Of a stretch of 64,000 nucleotides of DNA, positions 2,412 to 37,300 are shown piece by piece. Every line of letters begins with the position of its first letter. The stretch's first letter is position 1. The stretch lies in contig JADGKB010000054.1 of the NCBI GenBank assembly GCA_027604185.1, forward strand, positions 1 to 64,000, in the 5' to 3' direction. The position numbers were made by a program, and so were the translations under genes. The stretch comes from Boothiomyces macroporosus. Taxonomy: Eukaryota; Chytridiomycota; Chytridiomycetes; Rhizophydiales; Terramycetaceae. A model generated the notes under the pieces. That model was not told where the DNA came from. It saw only the letters and a program-made list of their open reading frames with translations, and did no database searches.

Positions 2412-2506
2412 TTGAATTTGATGATGCCTATGTGCGATATTATTTTATTTATAGTTTAGGCGGAAAATATCTTTTCTATTTTTCCATATTGATAGGTCGG
2501 TTATTG

Positions 2507-2518
2507 ACGGATATCCGT
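2507..2518. promoter_or_regulatory. 12-bp perfect palindrome CGG-N4-CCG upstream of the GST gene
   Basis: ACGGATATCCGT is a perfect inverted repeat about 100 bp upstream of the GST start codon, with a TATA-like TATAAA (minus strand) between them at 2448-2453. Inverted CGG triplets with a short spacer are the classic half-site arrangement for fungal Zn2Cys6 dimeric regulators. Binding here is inference; a single 12-bp palindrome can occur by chance. Confidence 0.3.
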
Positions 2519-2808
2519 GAGTGCAGCAATGAATATATCCAACTTAATGGAGCGTTAACTTTAAAGCATTACGACCTGAATCTTGATTATTACTATTGGT
2601 CTATCTAAATTTTTAGTTATGACAAAACCTTTGTAACTGATGGGAAACTTCAACATCATTGATACTATAGTTGTATACATGTAAGTTTGAGATTGAAAAG
2701 CAAGTACTTGACCAAAAAGCTTATTTCTATTTTAATCTTCAGTCATACGCGTCAAGATAACATGGTATTTTAAATAATTAAGCACATTTATTAACAATAA
2801 TTGTTGGT

Positions 2809-2940
2809 CTATTGTTGGTTTGGTAATCCATAGCAGATTTGACTGGAAGTATCTGGATGGCATTCAATAACGTCTCCTCTGGGAACAGGTGTGGCCATGG
2901 ACAAGGTAACAAGAACAAGAGCAAAGAGAGATTTAAACAT
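2809..2940 (-). CDS. Micro secreted peptide, C-x8-C 'SSQIC' family, copy 1
   Basis: A 43-codon gene, too short for usual ORF cut-offs. It has a start MFKSLFALVLVTLSMA typical of a signal peptide with a small-residue cleavage site, then a mature part beginning TPVPRGD. The core is CHPDTSSQIC followed by YGLPNQQ and stop. It contains exactly two cysteines with eight residues between them, presumably one disulfide loop. It is identified by comparison with six further copies at 7.2-9.8 kb that share signal peptide, AP-type cleavage region, loop length and SSQIC[WY]. A TATA box lies 32 bp upstream of the ATG. Function unknown; secretion and disulfide formation are inferred. Confidence 0.75.
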   Translation of the reverse strand: MFKSLFALVLVTLSMATPVPRGDVIECHPDTSSQICYGLPNQQ

Positions 2941-2971
2941 TAGTAGATAGTTTCAATTACTACCATGTCAT

Positions 2972-2977
2972 TTTATA
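2972..2977 (-). promoter_or_regulatory. TATA box of peptide gene copy 1
   Basis: Minus-strand GGATATAAAA lies 32 bp upstream of the start codon. The same element is found 27-52 bp upstream of copies 3, 5 and 7. Confidence 0.45.
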
Positions 2978-3269
2978 TCCTAATTACCGAAATCCAATTG
3001 CGGATCTCTGTATCCCATTAAAAAAGCAACGACCGCACCAATAAAAAGCGGTGTCCTGTGTCCAGAAAATAAAAGCGATTCGAACACAAAAACAGTGAAC
3101 CAGTACGTCTAGGGTTTAGCGGTAAAGGTTTAATCAAACTCTTAGCCTTCAAAACTTGCGGTACGTAGCTTCACCAAACACCCCCAGAATAGATATCAAG
3201 AAACTTAATAGAGTATAATGAATCGCCTCCTAAAAAGATGGCATGTTAAAAAATCCAGGCTTTATTTTC

Positions 3270-4616
3270 TTACTTGTTTTTTTCATTGTCATCTACTTGA
3301 CTTACCCAATCTTGACAAGAGAATATCGAAGCAGACTCTGGGTTAATCTTTCGAGTTTCTGGGAATACTTTGCTGCTCTCTTCATCTTCTTTTGAATATT
3401 CAGCAAACTTTTTTTCAATCGACAATTGTTCATTCTTGAATAAAGTATTTTTCACCAGTGGCTTTTGGACATTTTTGTCTTGTTTTTGAAGGTTTGGAGT
3501 TGTATGCTCATTCGGCAAGATGAATGTTGGGCTCTTTACTGTATTTCCCTTTTCCACTGCGTGTCTCCTTGCCACTGGACTATTGCTGAAACTATTAGAC
3601 TCGCGCGTGTTGGCATGTAAAGAAGGACTCAAGTAATTCGATTGTCTTTCAAGCTGCTCTAATTCGTTTAGTTTTCTATTGGATCCAGTTAATGCACTGA
3701 GCGAAGTAAATGAAGTTGAATGAACAGATGGATGCAAATAACCTTCTCGAGTGTCACTAGATCCCCTGCTGGGCTTTTCTACATTTGCTGAAAGGACAAT
3801 AGATGGCATCAATACTGATTTCCTTTCATATTCACCTTTTATTTGTTCAGCAGTAAGAGTGCTATTTGACATTTTGGCTGCTGAATCAGTTACCTTTTTG
3901 GTCGAATCAATTGAATATATAATTGCAACTGCCATGGCAAAAGTTGGAAATGCGATGTATATCGAGTAATAGAATTGAGGGTTTTCCACAGGTTGAAAGC
4001 TGAAAACAGCATAGACCAAATTAGCAAGAATGAGTCCAACATACAACCAACTTTCTAGGTCCAGCAAAGAGCAGAACGTATTCAATACATTTCCCTCTCT
4101 ACTATTTGCGTAGATTAGATATTCCACGAAAACGGAAATTTCTGCAAATAGAGTTGTGAAAATGTCAAAATACAGTGCAAACGGATCAAGCCCACTGGTA
4201 CATGGGCCATATTCGTCAAAGATATCCAATTCTTCCGAATTTACCATGTATACGGTTACAATGCATGATCCTAGTTTCAAAAATACCGCTCCAACCAGCA
4301 AGCATGACCCAAACTTGCTCGATTTTGCAATCTGTGCTACCTTTTTTACTTGCCCTAAAACATAAACCATCATTCCGCATCCGAAACAAACATAAGTCAG
4401 CTTTCTACCGAGAGTGCATTCAAACGAGAGCCCAAAAGAATCAGAAAACAGGATACAACAGCTATAGCCAAGAATATAAAAGAGAAGCGACCCAGCATTG
4501 TATATGCGCTGTCTTTTAGGAATGAAATGCCATCGGAAACCAACGTACATTACAACTACATACAAGTAAACCAAAATCAAAGAATAAACATAAAAGTTTC
4601 CAGGACCTAGAATCAT
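3270..4616 (-). CDS. Seven-helix integral membrane protein of unknown family
   Basis: An intronless protein of 448 residues. The first ~235 residues contain about seven hydrophobic segments (for example YSLILVYLYVVVMYVGF, SLLFYILGYSCCILF, WLYVGLILANLVYAVF and YIAFPTFAMAVAIIYSI), with a topology like a 7TM receptor or transporter. Residues ~240-448 are hydrophilic, Ser/Asn/Lys-rich and probably disordered, with many S/T-P and RxxS sites, resembling a phosphorylated cytoplasmic tail. I recognise no family signature, so GPCR-like is only a topology statement. It lies within the span of the SSQIC peptide genes, which makes it a speculative receptor candidate. Confidence 0.75.
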   Translation of the reverse strand: MILGPGNFYVYSLILVYLYVVVMYVGFRWHFIPKRQRIYNAGSLLFYILGYSCCILFSDSFGLSFECTLGRKLTYVCFGCGMMVYVLGQVKKVAQIAKSSKFGSCLLVGAVFLKLGSCIVTVYMVNSEELDIFDEYGPCTSGLDPFALYFDIFTTLFAEISVFVEYLIYANSREGNVLNTFCSLLDLESWLYVGLILANLVYAVFSFQPVENPQFYYSIYIAFPTFAMAVAIIYSIDSTKKVTDSAAKMSNSTLTAEQIKGEYERKSVLMPSIVLSANVEKPSRGSSDTREGYLHPSVHSTSFTSLSALTGSNRKLNELEQLERQSNYLSPSLHANTRESNSFSNSPVARRHAVEKGNTVKSPTFILPNEHTTPNLQKQDKNVQKPLVKNTLFKNEQLSIEKKFAEYSKEDEESSKVFPETRKINPESASIFSCQDWVSQVDDNEKNK

Positions 4617-4726
4617 TGCAATGCTAAATTTTCAAGAATCGCAGCTTTAAGAAGGATAATGTAAATATTTACGTTTGACGTAAACAATTAATCTGGTTCC
4701 ATTGTTTTGCAACAATCGAATTGATT

Positions 4727-5830
4727 TTATTTGCCAAACATGTAATTGAGCCAACGAAAGAAAAAGTCTTTTAGCGATAGCTGTTTTTCAAGCTTCAATT
4801 CAATAGGAATGTCAGTAGATTTAGCCAAAATATTGTGGAAATGGACATAATCATTTTCGTAATTCTAGGTTAGTGGAAAATACTTGATGATTGCGAATGA
4901 GGACAAAGCCAGTATTCTTCTTTGGGTTTACCCTGATTATGCTCTTAAAACCAATAGTTTCGCCTTGGACAGAATACAAGTCATTTTCATGGTGCCAACC
5001 AAATATTTCCGGTTTGGTACTCTTTAGATTGATGGAAGTCAAAGGGCTAAGCAGACTATCCCACTCTTCGTTTACACATTTACAAAATTGGATCAAGAAT
5101 AATGCCAGATCTTTTGAAGTAGTCCAGAGCCCTTTTACTGCTGGAGGATAGCTTGCATATGGATATACTCTCTTTTTGAAATAAATGGGGTTGCAATACC
5201 AGATATGACCGACAGACAAATTACCAGTGGTTTCAAAAGAGGAATTATCCATTCCACATGGTCCCAGAATCTGTTCGTACATTATTTGATGAAAAGGTTT
5301 TTTAGCGACAGTTTCCATAATATGCTGTAATATAACATACCCTATATTATCGACATTCTACCAGCTTCATTGTATCTGTACTTTCCAACTGATTTAATCA
5401 AAATATCCTTTTTCATTGACTTGCCCAACAGCAATTCCTGAATAGAAGGCAGCTTTTGATTAGCCGAATATCCCTGAAAATACTGGTATTCGATATCAAC
5501 TAAGTGATTTACTAGTTTCCTAATGGTAACTTTTTCTTGAGATTCATTTCTAAATTGTAAATCAGCGATATATTGCAAGATATCTTGATCCAAATCCACT
5601 AGTCCTTGATCAACCAATCTTAAAATTGCCAGAGAAACCAATACCTGTGAGATTTCACCAACTTGAAATCTGGTATCTCTTGTCAATTTGGTTTTGGTAA
5701 AAAATGGCAAAAATGGTGCTTTGGAATAACCGAATGAGCTTTCAAATGATATCGTTCCGTTGGATACCGTAGAGCAAGTGATCCCAAATGGTTTTCCTCC
5801 ATATATCTTTTCCAGCTGTGTTTGCATCAT
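4727..5830 (-). CDS. Beta-lactamase-fold (class C / LACTB-like) protein with altered catalytic motifs
   Basis: Three exons (5830-5362, 5341-4884, 4864-4727) give 354 residues. The introns are 20 nt (5342-5361) and 19 nt (4865-4883, GTATTTTCCACTAACCTAG); splicing restores NEAGYVILQHIMETVAKKPF and then NHQNYENDYVHFHNIL. The fold is recognisable from ILRLVDQGLVDLDQDI, IRKLVNHLV and AGYVILQHIMETV. The serine-type active site is not conserved. The S-x-x-K region reads FQVGEISQV, with Glu59 at the nucleophile and Gln62 at the lysine; the Y-x-N region reads YNEAGY; the last HxGG-like motif reads VQGETIGF. It is probably a non-catalytic member of the family. There is no signal peptide. The reading frame is intact, so it is not a pseudogene. 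Confidence 0.82.
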
Positions 5831-5843
5831 AAAAAGTAAAAAT

Positions 5844-6257
5844 TTAAACTTTTGTATTTAAAGAGTTGATTGCAGAGTCAATATCGACCCAGGGATTCAC
5901 CAAATACCAGTTTTGAAATAGAGCAGATTTAATGGTGCTTGTAAATGGCTTTCCGATTACATGTAAATGCAAATGAGGAACAAACACAAACGGAGGGACA
6001 TGGAATCCAACAACCTGATCTTGTTTAAGGATATTCTGATCATTCAACAGCCTGTCTGCAATTTCCTTCATTCTGGAAAGCATATCAGAGTGACTGTTGT
6101 TTAATTCGCTGATATTGCCCAAGTGAGTCTTTGGAATCAAGAGAAAGTGAACCGATGCTGCAGGACTGATATCTTTAAAGGCAACAAACTGGCCGTCATT
6201 GTACAGAATTATATTTGAATCATTCTTTTCCACGATATCACAAAATACGCAAGACAT
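5844..6257 (-). CDS. HIT-family nucleotide hydrolase (HINT3-like), copy 1
   Basis: A 137-residue protein counted from MSCVFCDIV. The frame is open to an upstream start at 6401, which would add 48 residues. The N-terminal CxxC (CVFCDIV), the strand LYNDGQFVAFKDISPAA, LLIPKTHLGNI, and the histidine triad PHLHLHVIGKPF near residues 105-115 identify the HIT fold. The family hydrolyses or transfers AMP from adenylated substrates. The short start matches known HINT3-like lengths. It is arranged divergently with a second HIT gene at 6452; the two proteins align throughout, indicating a local inverted duplication. Confidence 0.88.
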   Translation of the reverse strand: MSCVFCDIVEKNDSNIILYNDGQFVAFKDISPAASVHFLLIPKTHLGNISELNNSHSDMLSRMKEIADRLLNDQNILKQDQVVGFHVPPFVFVPHLHLHVIGKPFTSTIKSALFQNWYLVNPWVDIDSAINSLNTKV

Positions 6258-6451
6258 GAAAAAAGCAAGAACTCTCTCAATTGTGATTCGGAACCAGCGA
6301 ATTACCAGAGATTCAAACCCGACTAGTTGATAGGAGGTAACGATAAAACCAAGTGGAATAAGTCTCTCTAGGCAGTTGTCCTCTGTATCCCTTATTTGCA
6401 AAGAGCACCCTTGTTCAATTCTACCTACTGTTTTTTCAAACTAAAAATTGC

Positions 6452-7081
6452 ATGCGCTGGCTGGCGCTTTTCATTGTACTTGCAGCACTTTTACTTTCAC
6501 CAATTGTTCGGCACTACCTTTACGAATCAATAATTATTCTGGAAATCGTTTGTGTTAATCAGTTACTACATCCACAGTTAGACAAGTTGCTCAGTTGCAA
6601 AGATATTAGAATGACCACACCAAGCGACCAGTGCATATTTTGTGATATTATTAAAAATAATGGGCCAAACAAGATTATTTACAGCGACGAAGAATTTGTT
6701 GCTTTTGAAGACATAAATCCAGCTGCGAAATTGCATTACTTGCTTATTCCCAGAAGCCATATTGGTAATTATCTGTAATAAATAGGGTCAGTAAAACAAC
6801 TAGGACCTAATCATATTCCCATGCTACATAATATGACTCGAATAGCCAAGCAAATCACAAGTAATAATGTAGTATTGGGTTTCCATGTACCACCATTCAA
6901 TTCTATTGACCACCTTCATTTGCATATACTCGAAAAGCCCTTCAAGAATGTGTTTAGGTCATTGAAATACCCAACCTCGTGGGTTTGTAATTGGTTTGTT
7001 CCACTTGACAAATTGATTGCTTCGCTGGAAAGAGGAAAGCAGAAATATCATAATAATTTTACATGGGATTGGGATATTTAA
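6452..7081 (+). CDS. HIT-family nucleotide hydrolase (HINT3-like), copy 2
   Basis: Two exons (to 6764, and 6786-7081) separated by a 21-nt intron. Removing it gives PRSHIGSVKQLGPNHIPMLH, which matches copy 1. The HIT core starts at QCIFCDII and ends with DHLHLHILEKPF, the intact histidine triad. Two starts are possible. ATG 6452 gives 202 residues with a hydrophobic N-terminus (LALFIVLAALLLSPIV) that could anchor the protein. ATG 6611 gives a 149-residue soluble protein like copy 1. The coordinates use the longer frame; I cannot decide between them. The promoter is shared with the divergent copy 1. Confidence 0.85.
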
Positions 7082-7225
7082 TACATTTTTATATTTGAAT
7101 GTTTTTGTCAACACTGCAATCTTGAGCCGAATTCTATGAACACAAAAACAATGACAGGAAATTGATAGTGAGCCTCTTGCGGTAAACAATAATAAACTCA
7201 AAAGAGAAATTATTTATTTATTGAA

Positions 7226-7366
7226 CTACATGTCTCTTCCGTGAGACCAGCATATTTGATTGGAAGCTTCTACCAGGCAACCATGAGGATCACCGGTTTC
7301 CTTTGGTAGTGGTGCACTAGATACAGAAAGAAAAACTGCTGCAAGAGAAATGAATAATTTCAGCAT
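7226..7366 (-). CDS. Micro secreted peptide, SSQIC family, copy 2
   Basis: 46 residues. A signal peptide MLKLFISLAAVFLSVSSA is followed by PLPKETGDPHG and the loop CLVEASNQIC, then WSHGRDM. This is the only copy with SNQIC rather than SSQIC. It has two cysteines, eight residues apart. ATG 7366 is chosen because it gives a signal peptide like the other copies; an in-frame ATG at 7396 would add ten residues. No clear TATA box was found at the usual distance. Function unknown. Confidence 0.7.
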   Translation of the reverse strand: MLKLFISLAAVFLSVSSAPLPKETGDPHGCLVEASNQICWSHGRDM

Positions 7367-7562
7367 TTTATAATTGTACTTGGCAAGAAGTTTCATGTCT
7401 AAAAACGGACTGTCAATCAGTCTAGTTCCCGAAAAAGCACCGACTATTGACACGAATATTCTCCCAAAAGATTATGCTTGCAAAAACACATACCATGGTT
7501 TATGCTATATCCGGAATACCACATTTATAAAAACAAATCTAGTTTATTGAGCAATTAAATAG

Positions 7563-7703
7563 TTATTCATCTTTTCCATGATGCCAGCATATTTGGCTGG
7601 ATGTATCAGAGTAGCACTCTGGGGTATTACTTGGAGCTGGAGCAGGCACAGGTGCTGCACCAGATGTGATCACCAGAATAGCTGCAATGAGGATCTTGAA
7701 CAT
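7563..7703 (-). CDS. Micro secreted peptide, SSQIC family, copy 3
   Basis: 46 residues. The signal peptide MFKILIAAILVITSGA is followed by a Pro/Ala-rich spacer (APVPAPAPSNTPE), the loop CYSDTSSQIC and the tail WHHGKDE. The ending QICWHHG is shared with copy 5. A TATA box (minus-strand AATATAAATA) lies 27 bp upstream. Same orientation and layout as its neighbours; function unknown. Confidence 0.75.
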   Translation of the reverse strand: MFKILIAAILVITSGAAPVPAPAPSNTPECYSDTSSQICWHHGKDE

Positions 7704-7729
7704 TTCAAACTTGCAAAAAAGCAAGACTA

Positions 7730-7735
7730 TTTATA
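7730..7735 (-). promoter_or_regulatory. TATA box of peptide gene copy 3
   Basis: Minus-strand TATAAA 27 bp upstream of the start codon, in the same relative place as in copies 1 and 7. Confidence 0.4.
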
Positions 7736-8247
7736 TTAAAAGTTGCGATTGCGGCCAGTTGAGCAATGAACCAAAACAATGTAGGATTTTGATTTGGTGA
7801 ATATATGGAGTAGCAAATTCCGAATATATCCTTGCCTATCTATCTCATGCATGGTACTATCACAATCTTTTAGAATTTAAACGCTGGAATTTCTTTTGGT
7901 TTCTATATTTGGATCACCAAAGGAATCACAAAATTAAATTAAAAACGATTCAGTACAGCGCATACATATCCGCTTACCAAACTGACTAATTCAAGCCTGT
8001 GGAGAGGGAATAATGCTTTATCTAGCTCTAATTGTTCATGGAGTTACTTTATTATTGTCTACTTGAATCGTTCAACATAATGCGCACTTGCTCATTCTTG
8101 ATTCAGACGATATAATTCAAAAAGTATTCAAAGAACATTTACCTAATCCCCAAATTGAAGGGCCATTTTCTACAATACAGCGAAAAAATAATCAAATGAG
8201 TTCATCAGTACTACAAATTACAGGTTTATTCTATTCTATAAATACAA
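7736..8247. other. Gap between peptide copies 3 and 4
   Basis: About 510 bp. I searched both strands for an additional SSQIC peptide and found none. A plus-strand frame from 8088 is open for 97 codons, but it runs into copy 4 antisense and has no coding character. It presumably holds the promoter of copy 3 and the 3' end of copy 4. Confidence 0.4.
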
Positions 8248-8394
8248 TTATTCAAGTGGTGGGCCAACATAGCAGATTTGCGACGAAGAGTTTTGCTTAC
8301 AATCGGTTGTATCTCCCGGTTTGTTTGAATTTATTGGAGCCGAGAGCGCCAATCCAGCAAGTAATAGAAGCACTGATTTGATTGAGAACTGCAT
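8248..8394 (-). CDS. Micro secreted peptide, SSQIC family, copy 4
   Basis: 48 residues. The signal peptide MQFSIKSVLLLLAGLALSA is followed by PINSNKPGDTTD, the loop CKQNSSSQIC and the tail YVGPPLE. It shares loop length and SSQIC[WY] with the other copies but is the most divergent in start and tail. The frame is open upstream to 8457; ATG 8394 is preferred because the signal peptide begins there. Function unknown. Confidence 0.72.
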   Translation of the reverse strand: MQFSIKSVLLLLAGLALSAPINSNKPGDTTDCKQNSSSQICYVGPPLE

Positions 8395-8653
8395 TGCTTG
8401 TGCGTTATTTTTTCGCTCCTTAAAAGCTTCCCAGTTTATCGACGTGACTTGTGACAATTACGGGTTTCGTAAAAGGTAAATCGTGGTCCTTGTTTGGAAG
8501 TATCACACATCAATCAGGCATTCGTAATTGGAGAATGGTCATTACAGCATTGAATATGAATGGTTACTAGTGAACAAGATGGGTAAAAAACCACCCGAAA
8601 TGTGGTTTGAGTACGATATTTTAGTCTAATGAAAATATTCATATTAATTTATT

Positions 8654-8782
8654 TTAGTTTTGACCATGATGCCAGCATATCTGGCTAGATGTATCAGTGT
8701 GGCAAACATCATCTGGAAGGGTGATTGTTGGGAGAGCTGTAGACAATAGGGCAAGGGCAAGAGAAACAAGTACTTTAAACAT
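8654..8782 (-). CDS. Micro secreted peptide, SSQIC family, copy 5
   Basis: 42 residues. The signal peptide MFKVLVSLALALLSTA is followed by LPTITLPDDV, the loop CHTDTSSQIC and the tail WHHGQN. The nucleotide sequence around the loop and tail is close to copy 3, suggesting a fairly recent duplication. A TATA box (minus-strand GGTATAAATA) lies 52 bp upstream. Function unknown. Confidence 0.75.
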   Translation of the reverse strand: MFKVLVSLALALLSTALPTITLPDDVCHTDTSSQICWHHGQN

Positions 8783-8833
8783 AAGAATATTAGAGTATTA
8801 ATTTATAACTATTCGAATGAGAATACAGTGATA

Positions 8834-8839
8834 TTTATA
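8834..8839 (-). promoter_or_regulatory. TATA box of peptide gene copy 5
   Basis: Minus-strand GGTATAAAT, shared almost exactly with the element upstream of copy 7. Confidence 0.4.
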
Positions 8840-9198
8840 CCAATTTTCTGTCACCGACCAAAGGAATCAGGCTGAATTTCCTGTTTTGCGGTAAGGTGGA
8901 TACCGTTAAAATGTTGGCGGAAATAGGAACAAAATTCCTAAAGGATAGATTAGTGCTTTTCAGTCTTTTTTGAGTTTGAACGAAAAAGTAATACCTGTCT
9001 TAAACACTGAATTAAAAGTTATTTTTTCTTTGGTTCGAGTTATGGAGCGGCCATAGAATGTTTAGCAAAGACTCTTTGTGAGATGTATTCCATGTTGCCC
9101 TTTGCGAATGGTAGTCTTAGAAAAGGATCACATGATACAATCTACACTAAAAATTGTAATTAAACCCTCAATTACACTATTCAAAAAATATATTAAAG
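8840..9198. other. Gap between peptide copies 5 and 6
   Basis: About 360 bp of AT-rich sequence without ORFs of coding character, RNA genes or repeats that I can see. It should hold the promoter of copy 5 and the terminator of copy 6. Confidence 0.4.
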
Positions 9199-9324
9199 TT
9201 AATTTCCCGGTCCATTGTGATAGCAAATTTGGCTAGAGACGTCAATTAGACATGGCGGATCTATTTTTATCGGGGCTGCCAATGACAACGACGATAAGGT
9301 AAGGAAGATTATTTGCCCAAGCAT
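9199..9324 (-). CDS. Micro secreted peptide, SSQIC family, copy 6
   Basis: 41 residues, the shortest copy. The signal peptide MLGQIIFLTLSSLSLAA is followed by PIKIDPP, the loop CLIDVSSQIC and the tail YHNGPGN. It has two cysteines with the same eight-residue spacing. It lacks the MFK start seen in copies 1, 3 and 5, and no TATA box lies at the usual distance. Function unknown. Confidence 0.7.
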   Translation of the reverse strand: MLGQIIFLTLSSLSLAAPIKIDPPCLIDVSSQICYHNGPGN

Positions 9325-9649
9325 TTAATATATTAAAATTTAACTTGGTGCAACATGTATCACTTTTCAGTAAGTTACACAAGAACCTAGGCTGAGGTCT
9401 GTTTCTTGGTCCCCGTCTCTTCACAAAAGCGTGGCATCAAAGGAGTGCTTTTTTTCAAAGAGCAAAAATAAAGCACCGAATATTGTGATACATCAATAAT
9501 TTTCAATCCAGTTCCACCACCGTACCGGGGTCTTTATAAATTTAAGATGGAATCTCTCTGACACTTTGGGATTGTGAATCGTGCAAACCAAGTGGTAATA
9601 CAACACCAAATTACAAATGATGATATTCTATTAAAAATAAACAAGTGAA
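9325..9649. other. Gap between peptide copies 6 and 7
   Basis: About 325 bp. A minus-strand TATAAAG-like element occurs near 9533-9540, roughly 210 bp upstream of copy 6, too far for a simple promoter unless there is a long leader. Nothing else is recognised. Confidence 0.35.
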
Positions 9650-9778
9650 TTACATTGGGTTACCGTCTATCCAGCAAATCTGGCTTGAAGTATTCTCGTT
9701 ACAGTCGGTTTTAGGATGGTTTGGAGTTGGAGCAGAATAGATAAGGGCAGCTAACAAGAAAACAACGAATCTAAACAT
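9650..9778 (-). CDS. Micro secreted peptide, SSQIC family, copy 7
   Basis: 42 residues. The signal peptide MFRFVVFLLAALIYSA is followed by PTPNHPKTD, the loop CNENTSSQIC and the tail WIDGNPM. It is the last member of the minus-strand array, located just downstream of the TMEM62-like gene. A TATA box lies 30 bp upstream. Function unknown. Confidence 0.75.
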   Translation of the reverse strand: MFRFVVFLLAALIYSAPTPNHPKTDCNENTSSQICWIDGNPM

Positions 9779-9807: not shown

Positions 9808-9813
9808 TTTATA
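9808..9813 (-). promoter_or_regulatory. TATA box of peptide gene copy 7
   Basis: Minus-strand TGGTATAAATT 30 bp upstream of the start codon, nearly the same sequence as upstream of copy 5. Confidence 0.45.
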
Positions 9814-25378: not shown

Positions 25379-28300
25379 TTACGTATGTCTAGTCGAGATA
25401 CTTCCGTTACTTGCTCCACCTACTGTTATAGCTTTGTTTACCTTCATCTTTTCAACGGCCATTGAAATTCTATTCGTATACCATTTCTTATTCTTTGGCT
25501 GAAGTACTTCAGGGATTGCTGGAGGTCTTACTACAAATGGGCCTATCTCTGGCCTTGCTACATTTGGCTCAATTGGAGGTATCCATTGCATTTCTTGGCT
25601 TGGGAGCTTTAACCCAATCCTTACTACAGGTAAAAGTACCTTCCAAAGATTTTGATCTGTTTCCGCGTATCTCTCTTCTTGCTTAATCAGGTCATATTTT
25701 GCATCTAGCGATTCATCTGCTCGAACATATGTCTTCATGGCCTCGAATTCAGCCGAAGTGTGGATTGTTGCTGAAACTTGCACCACTATACACTTATTGA
25801 CATAAAGGTTTTTCGTTTTGACCACGAATGAAAAGGAGTCAGATCCATCAATTATTCCCTACAGTCAAATCTCTTTTACCTCTATTACAACATAGATTTT
25901 TTCCTTTTTATGTGGAGGGATTTTGCAGTTGCATGGTGATACTGAGTATGATATTCTTTTCTCTGCGCTAAGGTATAAAAAGTTTTCTGCCAGAGGATCT
26001 CCTTTCATATTAAATGCTCCAAGCTCCAAATATGTGTCACCAGAATTCTCAATTTCAAACATTTTTCGAACTTTGGTCTTTGAGCTGATTTTGTTGAACT
26101 TGATTTGAATTTTGGAAACTTCCACTCCTCCCAATTCTGATGATATTTTCGATATGTCTAAATCATCATCTAGTGACTTGATATCTTGTCCTTCAACATG
26201 GAACCCAAAAGTTCCTCCTTGGCCCGCGAATACTATATGATCTAGTGCGACCACTTCGCTTCTGTTACTAGCAGGTCTCTCTGCAGGTGTTCCTAGGCGT
26301 ATTTCTTGCCAAGTCATTGGAATTTCGTGTTCTTTGTATTGCATTTCCCCATCGTCTCCTTCAGCAATTTCATCCAACTGGAAAAATGTAATTCTTCCTG
26401 TTTCGGCTGCCATTTGGTCTTTTGGTGCGTAAAGCACTTTTACGACTTTTGTTTCTCCTGGAGCCAATTCGAATTCCGATATTGTTGCGAAAAAGTTTGG
26501 ATTGTTGGATTTAGGTCGAATTCGCATTCTTAATTCCGTAGGATTATGGACAGTCACCTCCTTGTATTCCGGTTCTTTCACACCAACAACGCCAAAATCT
26601 GTTTCTGGACTACTAACGTCTAGCTTGGGTCGAACAGCATTACCTAAAAGTACAATAGTGAATTTCTCGCTATCTACCTCAAACGTTGCTTCAGCTTGAT
26701 AGTGAACATCATTTTGGGGAACAAAATGCAGAGTGATTGAATATTCGCCACCAGCGGCAGCGACTCCTTCAGTAGGCAGATCGACCCGGAATATGTCTTT
26801 ATAGTTTTCTTCCACAGCCAACTTCCAATTTTTAACTCTCTTTCCTGGATTCATAAAGGTAAAGGACCTAGTAGCTTGATTTTGAACGAAAATGGACCCA
26901 AAATCTATCTCTTCAGGGATAACTATGGATTCTCCAATCTATGTTAAAATGCTCTTACATCAAACAATGTAGCTGATACAGAGATTGATTGCCTTTCCAA
27001 ATAATCCATATTGGTATTTACGATCAGCAGGCCTTCAATTACAATATTCTTCTCGACAATGTTTTGTATTTGCTCTTCGGACAGGCCCAGCACATTTATT
27101 TGAAGATCTTCGCTACTTCCGCCGTCTATTTGGTCACGGTATGGGGAAATATCAAATTTCTACATTAAAAAATAGTACTGCAATTGGTTCAGCAGAAAAT
27201 TCCAGATCTAACTGATATTTGATCATGAAACTATTTGGATTAAATATAAAATATTTCTTGGATGCACCTCTGTCCATCGGCTAAATTAGAAAAAGGAATA
27301 CCACTAAACCAAAGTCTATCTTTTCAATCGGCGGTGCAGATCTAAAATCGCTAGGCTGCACGGTGCGATACAAGAGGGACAACGGCAGGATTTGAATTGT
27401 GTATCTCACTGGGATAGTCGCTAAAATGACAGAACCTCTTTGTATGATTAAAGAATGCTCTTGTAGGTTGCCAAGCGGTAGTGAATGCACAAATTCCGGA
27501 TCAAGCAACTCTCCAGTACTATATTTGGGTTCGACATAGAAATTTAGGACTATCGCGGCGTGAGATCGGTTGTCTTCACTTTCACTTCCTTCTAATCTAA
27601 TATTCCTTTGAGTTACTTTGACAAATTGACTCTCAATTGTTGAGCCTGTTTCACAAACTGATACTTCCAGGTCAAGCCCCACTTTGCAATCATTCTCTAT
27701 TATAATCTGTGTCAAATATTTCTTTACCTCCTGTTCTATCAGTTCAGCGATATTCATTTCCCCAAATTCGACCGAGGCTGGAAGGCCATCCTGGTATATA
27801 GCAACAGGTTCTGATATACCTTTAGCAACAAAAGTTGCCGCGCCAACTGAAGTCTGAAGAGTAACATTGGTTTCATAATCACTGCTGATGATGCCGGTAA
27901 AGGTCACTTTTATCGAAATAGTTTCGCCAGCTTTAATCACACCTTCCAACGGAGAAATTGTAAATTCATCCGAGTTATCCCACGAAGTAATATTGTATAC
28001 ACAAAGTGCTGTACCAGGGTTTGAAAACTTGGCTTCGAGAGTTTTACTATCACCAATCGCGATCAACCCAAAGTCCAACAGCGGAGTGTCAATAACGAAT
28101 AGAGGGTTTCCAACTCCTCCCTGAAGTTCAAGCTGGGAAAACACTACCCAATTACCTTGATCGTCATCCTAATATCAGAAATAGGGTTACAGAGCATTTT
28201 TCAATGATTAGTTGAGCATTTTGCAAGTCGTCTCCTCTACCTTTGACTGCTTGGAAGATAGCCTGGATAATTCCAGTTGCATTTGGCTCCAACGTTCCAC

Positions 28301-31300
28301 TTTCACCGCCTTCATCAATTTTCCAGTCCAGAATTTCATCATTCCCAGCACTATTCAATATCTTTGCCCTATAATGTATCTTTTTGTTACTAAAGTTTGT
28401 TATTTTTCTGGTTGCTACCATGGATTCCCCAGCGGCAATCCTGCCTATATTGATTGCTTCTTGGTTATCCAAAGCCATCTCTGTGGAATAATATCTGAAT
28501 TGAAAAGGAAATTCTGTTGATGCTTTTTCAATCAATTCAGTATTTACAACCAGTTTCCCTTCCACTAGTGCATCTTTTGTAAGGCATATGGAAACAGTGA
28601 TTTCAACTTCTTGATTTGGCGCAATGGGTTGACCGATTTCCCAATTTTTAAATGACAAATTAAACGAAGCAGCAAGCTTGATAGGCTCAAATTTTAGTTC
28701 AAGTGGTATATCTGCAGTTCCTGTGTTTTTGATAATCAATTTTCTGGACTGTTCGACATTAATTGGTGTGTTTTCAAAATCAAGAGCACCTGAGGCTGCC
28801 CAAGTCTTTAAGATAGATCTTCCTTTCACAGCGATGGACTGGTATCCTGCTTTATTCAGACCTGAAGTAAAAAGTAAGTTGTCTCTCAATTTTTCTACTT
28901 GTTCGGGTGTATAGATAACTTCCATGGTCAGTGTATTTCCTGGTGCGATGATTATTGCCCCGTTAATCCTTTCCACAAGGATAATAATGTTCTTGTTTGG
29001 ATGGCTAACATCTAAATTCGCTTCAATTTGTCCGATATTCTTAACAGTGATCTTTTTACTATATTGCAAACCTATTAGACAGTTTCCAAAATCAAGTCCA
29101 TTGAAATCCTTATCTTCTTGGCAATGGTATTGAAACTCTAACTTTGAAACTCCACCTTCACCCCGCAAGGACATAACTGTTGGTCCGTCTTTCCATGCCA
29201 TTTTTAATGTTGCTAGATAGTATCCTTCCCTTTGCGGATTAAACGTTATTGTAATATGCGTTTTATAGGTCGGATCGGTTTTTCCAGCTTGCGGGTCTAT
29301 TCTAAACGATGAAAGATCCGACTCATTTTTAGAAACAATATCTAAATCCCAGGCGCCTTCGAACGAACCGACATTGTTGATGAATATCTTTTTTGTAGCT
29401 AACTGGCCTTTGGTTACAAGTCCAAAATCAACAGAGTCGTTTGATAATATCAATTCCGGGTTTCCTATGGAGCCAGTTAACGCAAATGAAAAGATTTCTT
29501 CATCGTTGGAAGTTACAGAAAATCCTTGTCTGTAAAATCCTGACGTGATTCCGGTAAAGGTGGCCGAAATATTCACTGCTTCGCCAGGCGCCAATATCCC
29601 TGCTGCATTTTCGATATTAAAGAATTCCGTCGTTTTGTCACTACAATTTTTAGGAACAACAAAATCAGATTTGATTGGGATAATATTATACTCCAATGGT
29701 ATATTTCCTTCATTTGGAAGATTGAACAATAGAGTAGAGCTGGTTCTTTCTCCTCCACAAATAAGATCTAATGGATATACGTTATTTTCAAATTTCCATA
29801 CAGATTTGTTATGGAGCTCAATTGTTTCAAGAATTGAATCAATTGCTATCGCAGACATGTGTAGTTTTTTGAGTGACTGTTGCAAGAGTTCTCTATTCGG
29901 TATCCATGCATCATTGATCAATTTCGTCTTCACTGTTTTAATGGTAGTTTTAGTGCTGGCCATAAATTTGGATATGATGTCTTGCAGTTCAGCAATCTTT
30001 TCAGGTTCTTCCTCGGCAATTTCAAGAGATACACCAAATTTTTGGGCAGTCTCCAATATTCTTTCGAATTCACCCCTGTGCTGTTGTATTTCACGCAGGT
30101 TGATCATTTCTTTACCAGAATTTAAGATGCCTTCATTTTCGCTCGCAGAAGGGTTTTTTTCTTTGGCTAGCTGGCTGGTCTTTTCCTTTTCAACCTTTTT
30201 CTGCTCACCAACTTTCTTTTGAGTGGTGTATGAATCATCCAACTGAGTTTTCCGAGATTTATCTTTCATATCTGTGAGAGGCTCCAAATCTGACTTTGCT
30301 TGACTACTTGAAACCTCTGGTTGTTGATGTTCATCCCTAAGCTTTTCTGTTTCATTAAAACCAGAGGGTTGCTTCATATTTTGGGGCGATTCCGCAGTAT
30401 TTATTCTGGATTCAAATTTAAAGTCGCCACTGGCAGGTTGAGATTGTAGAGCCTCTCTGCTGTCAAGTGAATTTCCTTCCAAGCTATCCAATTTGTTGGA
30501 TACAGGAGTGGTTACTAGTGAATAAGAATTAGATCCTGACTCTTGAGAGTCAGTTTTCCTTACGACCCTTCTTCCGGGATGATAGCTCCCGAAGCTACGT
30601 GAATTTCTGCTTGATGGCAAGGAAGACAACCTTTGGTCAGGAGATCTGACAGCAGATGGTGTTGCCCCTCGACCTTTCATCAGTGTTTCATATGAATAGG
30701 CGGGATCGAGTTGAGTAATCACATTTTCTAGCTCCTCCTCCATTCTACTTAATTCTTCCATAAAGCCTTTGGACGAAGCTCGGCTATCTGTCGATGGAGT
30801 ACTTGCACTACCACTTTTATCTTGTGTAGTTTTTCCCGGTCGAGGTTTGAACGAAGGGTCCTTTTTTGGAATAGTGGCTGTTTCAATAGCTAATTTCTTA
30901 TTGTTGTTTTGCATAATTTCAACTTCGGCAGTTTTCAGTCCCGCAAGACATTCATAAAGGTTATCTATATGGTTTTTCATCAGATTTTTTGTAGTTTCCA
31001 GAGTATTTGCAGGAAGTTCTGGGACATTCTTCTTTGATTTAGTCTGTTTTTTATCGCTTTTGGGAGTTGCTATTTGTCTCGCATAATTGGTCGTTACCAC
31101 TGGGGCTTTAATTTTCACAATTGCCTGTCCACCAACGGCTTTTACTTGGATCAAGTGCCTTTCTCCAACTTTTGTGGAAACTGAAAACGTTGCTTGGTAG
31201 TTCATCGCATAATCCTTGGGTAAAACTGATAATTTAAACGCCATCATCTCTCCTGATGCTATAATACCATGAGTAGGTTCGACAAAAAAGAAATCAAATT

Positions 31301-34300
31301 CCTCCATATCAATAGGATTCCCATCTTTCATCATATCCACCCATTTAACTTCAAACTCTATTGGATCAATACCGGTATTAGCAATATCAATGAAGCTGTG
31401 GTGCGTTTGACCAATTGTAACAATTCCAAAGTCGACCTCTCTCTGTTCTTTCATTACCTTCAAATATGGAACTCCAACTACCCCAAAGCATACCAACTTC
31501 ATGAGCCCAGCATCGGTCCAAAATGAAATTGCACTATCCAACAGTTCATAATCTGTGGGGCTAAATTTAATTTGAAGGATAATAGAGTCCTTTGGCGGGA
31601 TATTTCCAGCAGAAATATCCAACGACAACACTGAAGACTCGCATTCAGCCCTCCATGTGCAAGGAGCATTTCCATCATTAGTAATTCTGAATTCGATTGT
31701 CTTGTTGATGCCAATATAGGTTGTTTTGAAATCAACCTCTCCGCTCTGCATCTTGAATTCCGGATAGCCAGTTGAAAATCGCAAAGGAATCCGAATGGTT
31801 TCTACTTTGCTGTTTGGAACTCTTTTCCACTTTATGATAATTTCACCAGGTTTACCATCCTTTTTCTTGCTTTGACAAAGAACAAACTTTTCTACTGTCT
31901 GTCCACTTGCAATCACTCCTTCGCAATCGAAAGGATCTGGGCTATTTTTCAGCGAGAAAATGTGTGTATCTTGGATGATATCAAGTTCATATGAACAATC
32001 AAGAATACCTCGATTATGTAAATGCTAAATTACATTGCAATTACCAAAGTTTTTTCAGCAACAACGTCCAATTTTAAATTTCCAAAGTCAATCAACTCGT
32101 CTGTTACTAATTCTGCACTAGCCCCTGTTCCAGTTAGATTAATTTCAATAGTGCCAAATTGATGGAGAAATTCAGCAACGCCTAGGTATTGCGTCTGCTC
32201 CCGCTGTGGATGAAATTCTACTGGAATTTCAATTATTGAATTCCCAGGTAGATGCCATTTTCGAAGGTGCACAGTAAATTCAGGACTGATTTTAGTTAAT
32301 GACAAATTTTGTGGCAATGATGATCTGTTTGCTGCCTTTAAGGTCAGAACCGATAAATATTCACTTTTTTGACTACTTGCAGAAACACCATAACGAGGTT
32401 CTGGATTATTTTTCAGAAATTGGTTTTCTGAATACATTTCTGCTGGCAAAAATCCAAAATTGAGATTATATGGAGTAATCTCTAACGGGACATATGGCTG
32501 ACAGTTTAATTCGATAGTGCAATATTCAATCAAATTATCCATGTGTCCTGATTCGACCTCTTCACAAATTGGAACGTAGCAGAAGGAGAGCTCGTTCACC
32601 CCTTCCTCGTGATAATTCACGGCATAACCTACTCTGAAAATAAAACTGGATAATGGTGGCAACTCTGGGAGAGAAACTTGTGAATTTTCAATATCAAAGT
32701 CCAAAATGTCTGATACTGGGATTCTTTTTCTATTTGGATCAGGCTTAACTTTGATAATTGGTCCAACTATTCTTTTGGAGGAAATGCGTTTGCTGTTCGC
32801 CAACAAGAACTTGAATACTTTAATTTTTCTTCTAACTGCCCTCCAATAATCTCTTTTAACTTCCATCTAAAATTAGTTCGAATATTTACTTTTGGTGTTT
32901 CAGTATTGCTTACCACAGAGGTTACACCCAAATACTCCAGTCTAATTCGCGCTGGGCTAGAAGACGTCACACCCTTCAAATTTAACGAAATAGATCCTTT
33001 GTTTTTCAAATAAATTTGAGTCCAAACAATATTTCCGTCTAATTGAAGTCCCAGGTCAATTGGCTTGTCCAAATACTCCTCGCATACAAGCTGGGCTGTT
33101 CCGCCTACACCAGTCAAGTTCACACAATACAGTTTTTGATTTGCAAATACTTGCATCACACCATTTACTTTGCGGTGTTCTGTAGGATTGAAGAATACCT
33201 CCACAATTTGATTTGATTTGGCAGGAATTGTGAACTTCTGGGTTGAAATTGAGAATGGTGCCCGCACAAGTACAGTGACATCTAATTCTTGACTTCCATC
33301 GTTTTGGAGAAATAGCTTCTTTCTAGCCATATGGAAAATAATAGTGCTTCCAAATTCAATTGTGTCTGGCAAACCATTCAGTATAGTATACAGAGCGACT
33401 CCTTTTAGTATGATTGTTCCCAACCTTAAGCTCTTGGCATGAGTAGCTATCGGGTCGATAAATATCTCGCATTTTGTTTCAAATGACCCTGATACTTCGG
33501 TTGTGAACCTAAACGGAACAACAAATGTTTCCCATTTATTCAGCTCCCCCCGAATAACAGGCATTTCAAAAGCGAGGGTTTTTCTAGCGGAGGGTGCAAC
33601 CTTTAGTGACCAGTGATATCTAAAGTTGTAAGGATTACATAGCATCAAATGTCTAGTACAATCCTGATTACAATCCCCAGACAATTCTATTTTACCAAAG
33701 TCAAGAACAAACTGCTGCTCGACATGATTTTGAAATGGTAGAAGCATAAACCCAAGACCGAGTCTCTTCACTATTTGAGTAGAGCTGTGCAGATAGTTTC
33801 CGAAATCTACAGCTGCTGCAAATCCGATAACCGTAACCAATGTCCCTACATTTGCGGGGGGATTGAAATAGCTGTCTAGCCTTTGCAATTCTCCCGGTTC
33901 CAATTCCTTTTGTTTTGGATCCAATGTAAATCCAGACGACGCAAAGAAGCGGACCTTTTTTGTACTGCTCCCTCTATTTTGAATAGTTAACGATTGAGGT
34001 GTGGTACTAAAGTCACCCACGGTTTCACATATATAAGGGTCTGTCTTGAATGCAACTTCATAATTGGTATCAGATGGGATTGCAAGGACATCTTTACCGT
34101 CATCCGCCCACATCTCATCAGTATACTCCAGTTTTAAGGTTCGCGTTCGTGAAAACCAGTTTAATACTTGCTCAAATGCAGGGTGAATTTTCAGGTCTGG
34201 ATTTTCATATCGAGGCTCGATACATGTACCAATCAAGTATAGTTCTTTTCCCTTCATTGTAGCATCCAATAGCATTATATTTGGATGGGTCATCTGCATT

Positions 34301-37300
34301 TTAACTTCTTTCATATAGCATCCTGTTCGGAAAGGCTGGAATTTAAAAGTTACTGGAACAATTGAAAAAGCCTGGACTTCCATCAAATTATTCTCTGAAA
34401 AGTTTTGTGCCACTGTAATTTGTTTTACTTTGTTTTGCTCCTCTACAAAATCTGGGAAATAAAGCTTTACATCATACTGAGACTCGTTCACAACCACGGT
34501 GCTAAAATTAACTGACTGCGATAGCCTGACAGGCTTGAAAAAGACGTAATCATAGAGAGGCAGGTAGATGGGGTGTCCAACGTAGGCAGTAATATTTATA
34601 CCGACATTTTCAAAGTCTTGACATGAAACCTCCAGCACAGAACTGTAGTTGCCTCTTGTTTGGAACTTTAAACTATTGTAGGTGAAAACAACATTGATTG
34701 TGCTGGCACTTCTAGGAGCTACTCGTACCAAGTAGGGACACGTTATCAATTTATCATATGGATACAAGCTGCAAGTGATAGGATCATGCCCCCAGTTTAA
34801 GATGGTTAAACATCTCGTTTCTTGAATATTATCCGGGGTGCAAATACCAAAATCTAATGTATGTGAAATTTTTCTTTGAACAGGATCAATTTGCGCTGCT
34901 GTAATTGATTTCATGATCTGCATCTCAAATGGTGTAAGTCCTGATGTACTTGGGTCGTTGTGGTGAGATTTATCAACCTTTTTAATAAGTTGTGTTCTTT
35001 CAAAGGAAAGGGCAGTGATACCAAGCAACGAATTTTTTTCGTTTTCTGGATATATAGCCATTGGCATATCCGTAGTTCCCACCAATTGAACCAATATTTC
35101 TTCTCCTCCAGGTCCATGGAATATAATGTTTTCAGAAACCCTTCCAGGGGTTTTTGGATAGAATATAATCGGGATTTTCAAAGTTTCGAGAGCTTTGAGT
35201 TTGATGGAATCATAATCAATCTGGAATGAGTAGCTATGTCTGTCCCTGATGGTCACTTTCTGTCCTTCCTCATTTTCCATAGTCTTTCCTAATTGTACGT
35301 TGAGTGTGATTTGATATTCTGCCAAATTCTCGATGTGAATGAATAACTCTTTTTTCTTCATTGGAAGTACCCATCCGGCATCAATAAAGGTCGGTGTTAT
35401 CTTGAAGAATTTCTTTTTGATTGCCGATAACCTTGAAGTGGCCATTTTGCGTCCGTATCGATCGAAAACATGCAGCCCGCCATCAATATTGGTGTTTTTC
35501 ATCGAAAGAGGGTAGAATGTGACTGCAATTTCATATACACCCTCTCCTTGAAGTTTGAAATGGAAATCTTTGATAGAAAACACGTTTGGAGGCTCCACAG
35601 CTATAAAGTATTCCCGTTCAGTGTAATCACCTCTCCCTGCTTTAAACCGTAACGCTACAGTTTTAGTCATTGGAGCCCGTGAGCTATGGAAATCACAGTG
35701 TCCTGGCTCGGTTACGATTCTAATGGGTTGTGGTTTCAAATGCGAGAATGCCAAACCTTCTCGCAAGAAATCCGACAAGTTAGCTGGATCATCGACACAG
35801 CTAAAATCTTCAATATTGAAATTTACTTCGTGTTGATATTTTGCTGAAGTATGACCAATCATTCTTGTGTGTGAATCAATAACCTTTTTTCTCAGTGTAC
35901 TATTGTGTTCTTGAAGGTTTTTGTATAATTTTTGTAAAAAGTAGGACTCCAGCTTCCTATATTGTAGACTGCTTGTGTTTGTCTGTTTTGCCAGTATCGG
36001 CAAAAGATCTTCCCAAGTGTCCGTTTCTTGTGGTTCACGACCGTCGTCTCTGAAGAGGTAAGGAAGAGCAAATGTTCCTTGCTGCCTAATAAGTGATGGT
36101 ATGTCATAAAAAGGTATCCCGTCTACAGTAAACCCACTAGGGCTGGGTAAAGTGAATCCTCTTGGAACATAGAATGGATTCCCGTCATTGTCATATCCAG
36201 CCATCATATTCTTTTGAGCAAATTCAGATTGTGTATTCTTCTTGTCGACGGAATAGTATCGATTTCCTTTTAATGTCAAGCCTGCTGGAAGTGCTTTGAC
36301 TGTGGGCGTCCTTCCATAGTACGGAATTAATGATTGAGTATAACCGACTGGAATAGGTGGTAGATTCACAGGCGGTGTGAAGTATGGCTCTCCGGTTGCA
36401 GTATAGTTGTTTGGAACAGGGAAAGAAAAGCATTCTGCATATCCACCAACAAAAGACTGCTTTCTCGATGAAATGGATTCTCTGAAGCTTTCAACTGGCT
36501 GCGCCTGGTTAGGAGTAGCAAAATCAAGTCCATCAACATAGTCTTCATTAATGACTTTGAGCTGTATCGCTTTCCATACTGCCTTTTCTTCTATACCTTT
36601 AATGTATATATTGAATATAGCACCATCATATAATCCCCCACTAGCGTTAGAGTGTCCTTACACATCATTAATACCCTTTTGTACTACAATATTACTCGCT
36701 TCTTCATCAACACTTTCAACAATAGTAAGAATCCTCCGTAATTTTGGTCTGTGAGGCTCTATAATATCCAAAATTACAGGTGCACCTAACGGAAAGTCTG
36801 TCTCTTGTTCTTGCGGTTTGAGACCACTATATTAAAATATAACATACGGTAATTTACAAGGATATAGACAAGTATGTCTGTTTGGGGTCGTTCCTTCAGG
36901 ATAAGAGTGTTCTTTGGGAGTATCGTCTATGGAACCTAATGAAATATAGTCCTGATAATAATTTCTCTCGCTTTGGATAATTTGCTTGGTATTTGCAGAT
37001 GGCTTGCCAATAGGTTTGCCATAAATAGGAGAAATATAAGTTGCATTTCTATCAATTTTCTCTGGATCAAATCCAGGGTAGGGACAAATTAGTGTAAATC
37101 CTTGCGGACAAGCGCCTCCGTCCAAGTCGTCAGTTTTTGAAGGAATTCTTGTAAACCCTTTAGGGATTTCATCAGATTCTTTCCATGTTGAAGGTTCTTT
37201 TGGAACAATAAACCGTCTTAACCCATCTTCAACTTTTTGCACTATAGAAGTGTCTTTTGGCATTGTCGGTACGGGTGATTGAGTATATGCACATGGTATA

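Follow-up and report, generated by a model that had tools for sequence, protein, structure and literature searches.

Known and Proposed Secreted Peptide Signals in Fungi

Among the described systems, the pheromone systems of the Dikarya come nearest in use to the locus considered here, an array of seven very short genes for putative secreted peptides in the chytrid Boothiomyces macroporosus (Terramycetaceae, Rhizophydiales). The array lies in the first 64 kb (hereafter the window, 64,000 nucleotides) of the 97 kb contig C54 (JADGKB010000054.1) of a 15.2 Mb genome assembled in 216 contigs. The ascomycete precursors of the alpha-factor type and the Kex2-processed repeat proteins (KEPs) carry a signal peptide, yield short secreted peptides and contain repeats within one gene (PMC6339444, PMC7329392), and a second system for comparison is provided by the pheromone/receptor mating loci of basidiomycetes (PMC3236058). 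Qsp1 of Cryptococcus is a secreted quorum-sensing peptide that is imported by Opt1 and not sensed at the cell surface, and its abstract mentions no family of ring peptides (PMC7537855). As for the receptors, it is reported that Ste2 and Ste3 arose after the split of the Dikarya and that the Chytridiomycota hold animal-like G protein-coupled receptors (GPCRs) (PMC3251606), and that STE2-like receptors occur only in the Ascomycota and STE3-like receptors mainly in the Ascomycota and Basidiomycota (PMC12842992). Ste2 and Ste3 are thus wholly or mainly receptors of the Dikarya. No chytrid peptide pheromone was found among the papers listed by the literature searches, judged by titles and the opening parts of abstracts.

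Seven Probable Genes for Secreted Single-Disulfide Peptides

The seven open reading frames (ORFs) of the array lie on the minus strand, encode 41–48 amino acids (aa) and end in stop codons, as a sequence-only reading of this DNA had reported and translation bears out. To judge from the sequence features that follow, these frames are in all likelihood genuine genes, whose products would be secreted peptides with a single disulfide. In all seven copies, two cysteines enclose eight residues (C-x8-C), the second cysteine closes a QIC and an aromatic residue comes next (W in four copies and Y in three), in agreement with that reading. SSQIC is found in six copies and SNQIC in the seventh; the consensus C-x-x-[DEN]-[TASV]-S-[SN]-Q-I-C covers all seven rings, each with W or Y after it. 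In the alignment, the initial Met, a Pro just past the leader, both Cys and S-x-Q-I-C are invariant, and the rest drifts. The H-x-G tail that had been described as frequent is present in copies 3, 5, and 6, with S-H-G instead in copy 2, and the leader does not end in Ala in every copy, as had been claimed.

The pattern C-x4-S[SN]QIC[WY] has seven matches in the six frames of the window and none in 20 random sequences generated as first-order Markov chains with a dinucleotide make-up like that of the window; C-x8-C alone barely exceeds chance (155 in the window against a mean of 138 in the random sequences). A home-made, unvalidated leader rule based on hydropathy, charge and small residues is passed by six of the seven copies and by 8 of 151 background ATG-initiated ORFs of 35–60 aa in the window; the exception, copy 6, has a hydropathy of 2.01, under the threshold of 2.3. 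By this rule, most copies do carry the secretion leader that had been proposed, and an absence of leaders, named beforehand as an outcome that would speak against the array, was not borne out.

Synonymous differences are near saturation in every region (pS 0.73–0.87, as pooled pairwise proportions over the seven copies). Replacement differences are lowest in the six codons of [TASV]S[SN]QIC (0.13), amount to 0.26 for the ring plus the adjoining aromatic residue, and rise to 0.49, 0.52 and 0.64 in leader, spacer and tail, respectively. The corresponding pN/pS values, which are uncorrected and descriptive, are 0.15 for [TASV]S[SN]QIC, 0.30 for the ring, 0.64 for the leader, 0.68 for the spacer and 0.87 for the tail. 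The selection on the peptide that had been suspected is thus reflected in a core that hardly varies while synonymous sites are near saturation; the ratio lies far below 1 in the core, as anticipated, but not in the tail. Within these short genes the contrast is clear: strong constraint acts on the half-ring, and the leader is conserved in character only. At the DNA level, the matches between coding copies (13–41 nt) all involve the core, with one exception, a 15 nt match shared by copies 3 and 7, and the flanks, with neighbor-copy sequence set aside, have only chance-like words of 13–17 nt in common (E 0.005–0.03). Because the matches are confined nearly to the core and those in the flanks are chance-like, the duplications are apparently old.

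Peptide gene 1 (2809–2940; 43 aa; ring CHPDTSSQIC-Y), which lies away from the rest of the array, with four unrelated genes in between, has a TATAAA at 2972–2977 and an AATAAA at 2787–2792. Peptide gene 2 (7226–7366; 46 aa; ring CLVEASNQIC-W) has two overlapping AATAAA motifs within 13 nt of the stop codon, and its sole TATAAA, at −6, is too close to count. Both elements accompany peptide gene 3 (7563–7703; 46 aa; ring CYSDTSSQIC-W; TATAAA at 7730–7735 and AATAAA at 7543–7548), and peptide gene 4 (8248–8394; 48 aa; ring CKQNSSSQIC-Y) has an AATAAA at 8225–8230 and no TATAAA within 90 nt. Two TATAAA motifs (8834–8839 and 8802–8807) and an AATAAA (8648–8653) belong to peptide gene 5 (8654–8782; 42 aa; ring CHTDTSSQIC-W), neither element was found for peptide gene 6 (9199–9324; 41 aa; ring CLIDVSSQIC-Y), and peptide gene 7 (9650–9778; 42 aa; ring CNENTSSQIC-W) has a TATAAA at 9808–9813 and no AATAAA that was found. 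The TATAAA motifs stand 25–57 nt ahead of the ATG in copies 1, 3, 5, and 7, and AATAAA starts at most 18 nt past the stop codon in copies 1–5. These TATA-like and polyadenylation-like elements, placed as they are, give most copies the look of independent transcription units; copy 6 has neither of them.

Predicted Mature Peptides

Cleavage before [ATL]-P would give mature peptides of 25–30 aa and, prior to ring closure, a calculated 2.65–3.23 kDa, with a predicted net charge of −1 to −3 in all seven and a mean hydropathy of −0.08 to −1.07. None of the seven predicted peptides contains a dibasic pair (KR, RR, or KK), each ORF holds a single core, and no CaaX box is present, the C-termini being NQQ, RDM, KDE, PLE, GQN, PGN, and NPM, and none having a Cys among its final four positions. 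Pheromones of the Kex2-repeat kind were ruled out by the single core and the lack of dibasic sites, CaaX pheromones by the C-termini, and cationic antimicrobials by the acidity of all seven peptides; metal binding by an HH tail was rejected, because HH is present in copies 3 and 5 only. The invariant X-Pro start could protect the peptides or serve as a substrate for a trimming enzyme of the DPP IV type, for which the genome contains at least one gene, on contig C154.

A Seven-Helix Protein Inside the Array

An orphan seven-helix (7TM) protein of 448 aa, a candidate GPCR, is encoded on the minus strand at 3270–4616, between peptide genes 1 and 2; the sequence-only reading had passed over it. 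Its predicted structure, with a mean pLDDT of only 45.9, contains seven membrane-length helices in residues 5–234, and its fold matches are mostly GPCR chains at low confidence, Ste2 being first among tied matches. With these lists, Ste-type families including STE2 remain compatible. The protein has no Pfam match to STE2 (PF02116), and the STE2 profile has no match above the cut-off in the genome, nor in any of 14 control genomes. A conserved Cys pair, at the start of TM3 and in the second extracellular loop, is the hallmark of class-A GPCRs. C67 and C139 are invariant among the 7TM protein of the window, its three paralogues in the same genome and the proteins of Terramyces and Boothiomyces sp. 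JEL0838, and may form a class-A-like disulfide.

The homologue in Terramyces sp. JEL0728 (HDV01_005262) is 48% identical to this protein over the full length; despite this homologue, the protein has no match in Boothiomyces sp. JEL0838. Its paralogue on contig C144 is 99% identical (289/293 residues) to HDV04_002184 of that strain, a match that points to a Boothiomyces-like chytrid as the source. Three class-A (7tm_1) GPCR ORFs lie in a row at C108:18000–27999 (4063–4794, 5083–5916, and 6614–7387 in locus coordinates), with two paralogues of the orphan 7TM family nearby. The STE3 profile has no match in the genome that passes the cut-off; its one match below that limit, on contig C193 (20.9 bits against 29.2), was set aside, because the ORF that holds it shows class-A features on inspection. 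That ORF is one of two adjoining ones (838–2361 and 2446–3030 in locus coordinates) that look class-A GPCR-like by eye.

A Signaling Model and its Alternatives

The leader, the half-fixed ring, the acidic surroundings, the diverged copies and the likely GPCR in the cluster are together best explained by extracellular signaling. We favor, at a probability of roughly 0.45 for the explanation as a whole, the view that the peptides are the chytrid's own signals and are read by a GPCR, possibly the neighboring 7TM protein. In the model that we infer, the seven old tandem duplicates would be transcribed and give rise to short precursors, which the N-terminal signal peptide would direct into the secretory pathway, and cleavage would release an acidic peptide of about 25–30 residues with an X-Pro start and a single disulfide ring. 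The fixed half-ring and the aromatic residue would form the binding face; paralogue-specific variants would come from the opening positions of the ring and from the tail. The peptides would then act outside the cell, between cells of the same chytrid, in mating, zoospore gathering or development, and a seven-helix receptor would read them, the first candidate being the orphan protein at 3270–4616; any of the class-A GPCR ORFs of the genome could also be the receptor. Seven clustered ring peptides of 25–30 residues make synthesis and direct testing on zoospores feasible, and a named candidate receptor adjoins them.

This proposed system resembles the alpha-factor type precursors and the KEPs in its signal peptide, its short secreted product and the candidate receptor nearby, for which the structural model places Ste2 at the head of a tie, and the yeast alpha-factor precursor also has an X-Pro after its leader. 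It differs in that the chytrid has many genes, each with one core and a predicted ring, and no Kex2 dibasic sites. As in the mating loci of basidiomycetes, several tiny genes for peptides sit in a cluster together with a single gene for a seven-helix receptor-like protein. The pheromones of basidiomycetes, however, lack a leader, carry a CaaX modification and are sensed through STE3, whereas the chytrid peptides have a leader and no CaaX box, and the genome has no STE3 match above the cut-off. The array belongs to neither family of the Dikarya, because it lacks both Kex2 repeats and a CaaX box. Outside the fungi, animal hormones such as melanin-concentrating hormone (MCH) and somatostatin have one disulfide ring, of a size like that predicted here, and an aromatic residue in or beside the ring; both are read by class-A GPCRs, and MCH has the arrangement C-x8-C-W. 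Unlike these hormones, the chytrid peptides have no sequence match among PDB chains and no dibasic processing site, and the likeness is one of layout only. The peptides would resemble Qsp1 in being secreted fungal signals that act on the producer's own kind, as proposed here. It is also tempting, although doubtful, to see in the array a pheromone/receptor locus of the chytrid, in which leader-bearing ring peptides are paired with a lineage-specific GPCR of their own, of an origin separate from that of the Ste2/alpha-factor and Ste3/a-factor systems of the Dikarya. If so, it would hold the first peptide mating or gathering signal of a zoosporic fungus.

The alternative that survives best, although unlikely, is a role on the producer's own cells without a GPCR, with the products acting as cell-wall, adhesive or protease-inhibitor peptides or as ligands imported by a transporter in the manner of Qsp1. 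The same sequence facts fit such a role, and the tie between peptide and receptor is one that we infer. However, the peptides are short and, beyond the half-ring, probably vary too much to be structural components, and they have no Pfam or PDB match.

Next in order, and likewise unlikely, the peptides may be secreted antagonists or antimicrobials that are directed against bacteria, other fungi or grazers and were diversified in an arms race. The secretion signal and the array of diverged paralogues, in which leader, spacer and tail change fast around a fixed core, agree with this idea. However, all seven peptides are acidic, with negative mean hydropathy and one ring only, and a half-ring that is kept and not varied would better suit a fixed partner than a shifting enemy.

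Delivery as effectors into a host (an alga, plant tissue or an animal) is improbable. Effectors are typically small, secreted, lineage-restricted and encoded in clustered genes, as these peptides would be, but no family match was found, and Boothiomyces and Terramyces, the nearest named organisms, are saprotrophs. Among the roles that the sequence-only reading had offered, signaling would thus fit best, and the antimicrobial and effector options are weakened by acidity and by saprotrophy, respectively. That the frames are chance ORFs, or duplicates in decay that yield no product, as their very short length might suggest, is highly improbable; this reading was rejected in view of the motif count of seven against none in random sequences, the near-saturated synonymous change around a nearly fixed core, and an ATG, leader, Cys spacing and stop codon that are intact in all seven copies.

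Distribution of the Family

Searches of the genome with copies 1, 2, 3, 4, and 7 as queries (copies 5 and 6 were not used) gave matches in this array only. A degenerate pattern matched 35 times over the genome, against 10 matches for a reversed control pattern; the 30 that were read comprise the seven copies and 23 sites without a leader-bearing C-x8-C ORF, and five (on contigs C79, C122, and C173, and two on C195) were left unread. A profile of the family was applied to every frame of the window, of a further 20 kb of the contig and of 30 kb surrounding the 7TM paralogues; it recovers the seven copies and then shows a gap to E 0.049. No further array was found near these paralogues in the 30 kb read on contigs C108 and C144. 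When 5.8 billion proteins were searched with a profile, 149 candidates were scored and none reached E ≤ 10. The seven copies matched no Pfam family at E ≤ 10, no NCBIfam entry at E ≤ 1 and no PDB chain sequence at E ≤ 10. Nothing related being found in these collections, the earlier statement that the signature belongs to no described family stands; the string SSQIC was not found in 5.39 million papers either. Two matches to PHROGs, each involving a single copy (best E 0.068), were taken as chance, and a viral origin has no support from this result or from a tblastn search of copy 3 against phages, which found none, a weak test. ORFs so short are often skipped by gene callers or left unannotated. 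The lack of matches in protein sets is therefore weak evidence as regards Terramyces or Boothiomyces sp. JEL0838, and other chytrids may hold families of this kind that have gone unnoticed.

Other Features of the Window

Positions 1–43 are, by eye, what we take to be a partial tRNA-Asp cut by the contig end; for the window as a whole, ARAGORN reported none. Very short candidate introns (689–716, 807–825, and 6765–6785; 28, 19, and 21 nt, respectively) lie in the PAQR and HIT genes, and joining the exons across them restores the reading frame; introns of 19–28 nt are close to the lower known size limit. Two divergent HIT/DcpS_C genes, at 5844–6401 (minus strand) and 6452–7081 (plus strand), have in common an inverted repeat of 95 nt in which they are 72% alike, and the pair is apparently an inverted gene duplication inside the array. 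Farther along, four large ORFs with Ig domains of the HYDIN/CFAP65 type (25868–36657, minus strand) appear to form an intron-interrupted flagellar gene, and such flagellar domains fit a zoosporic fungus.
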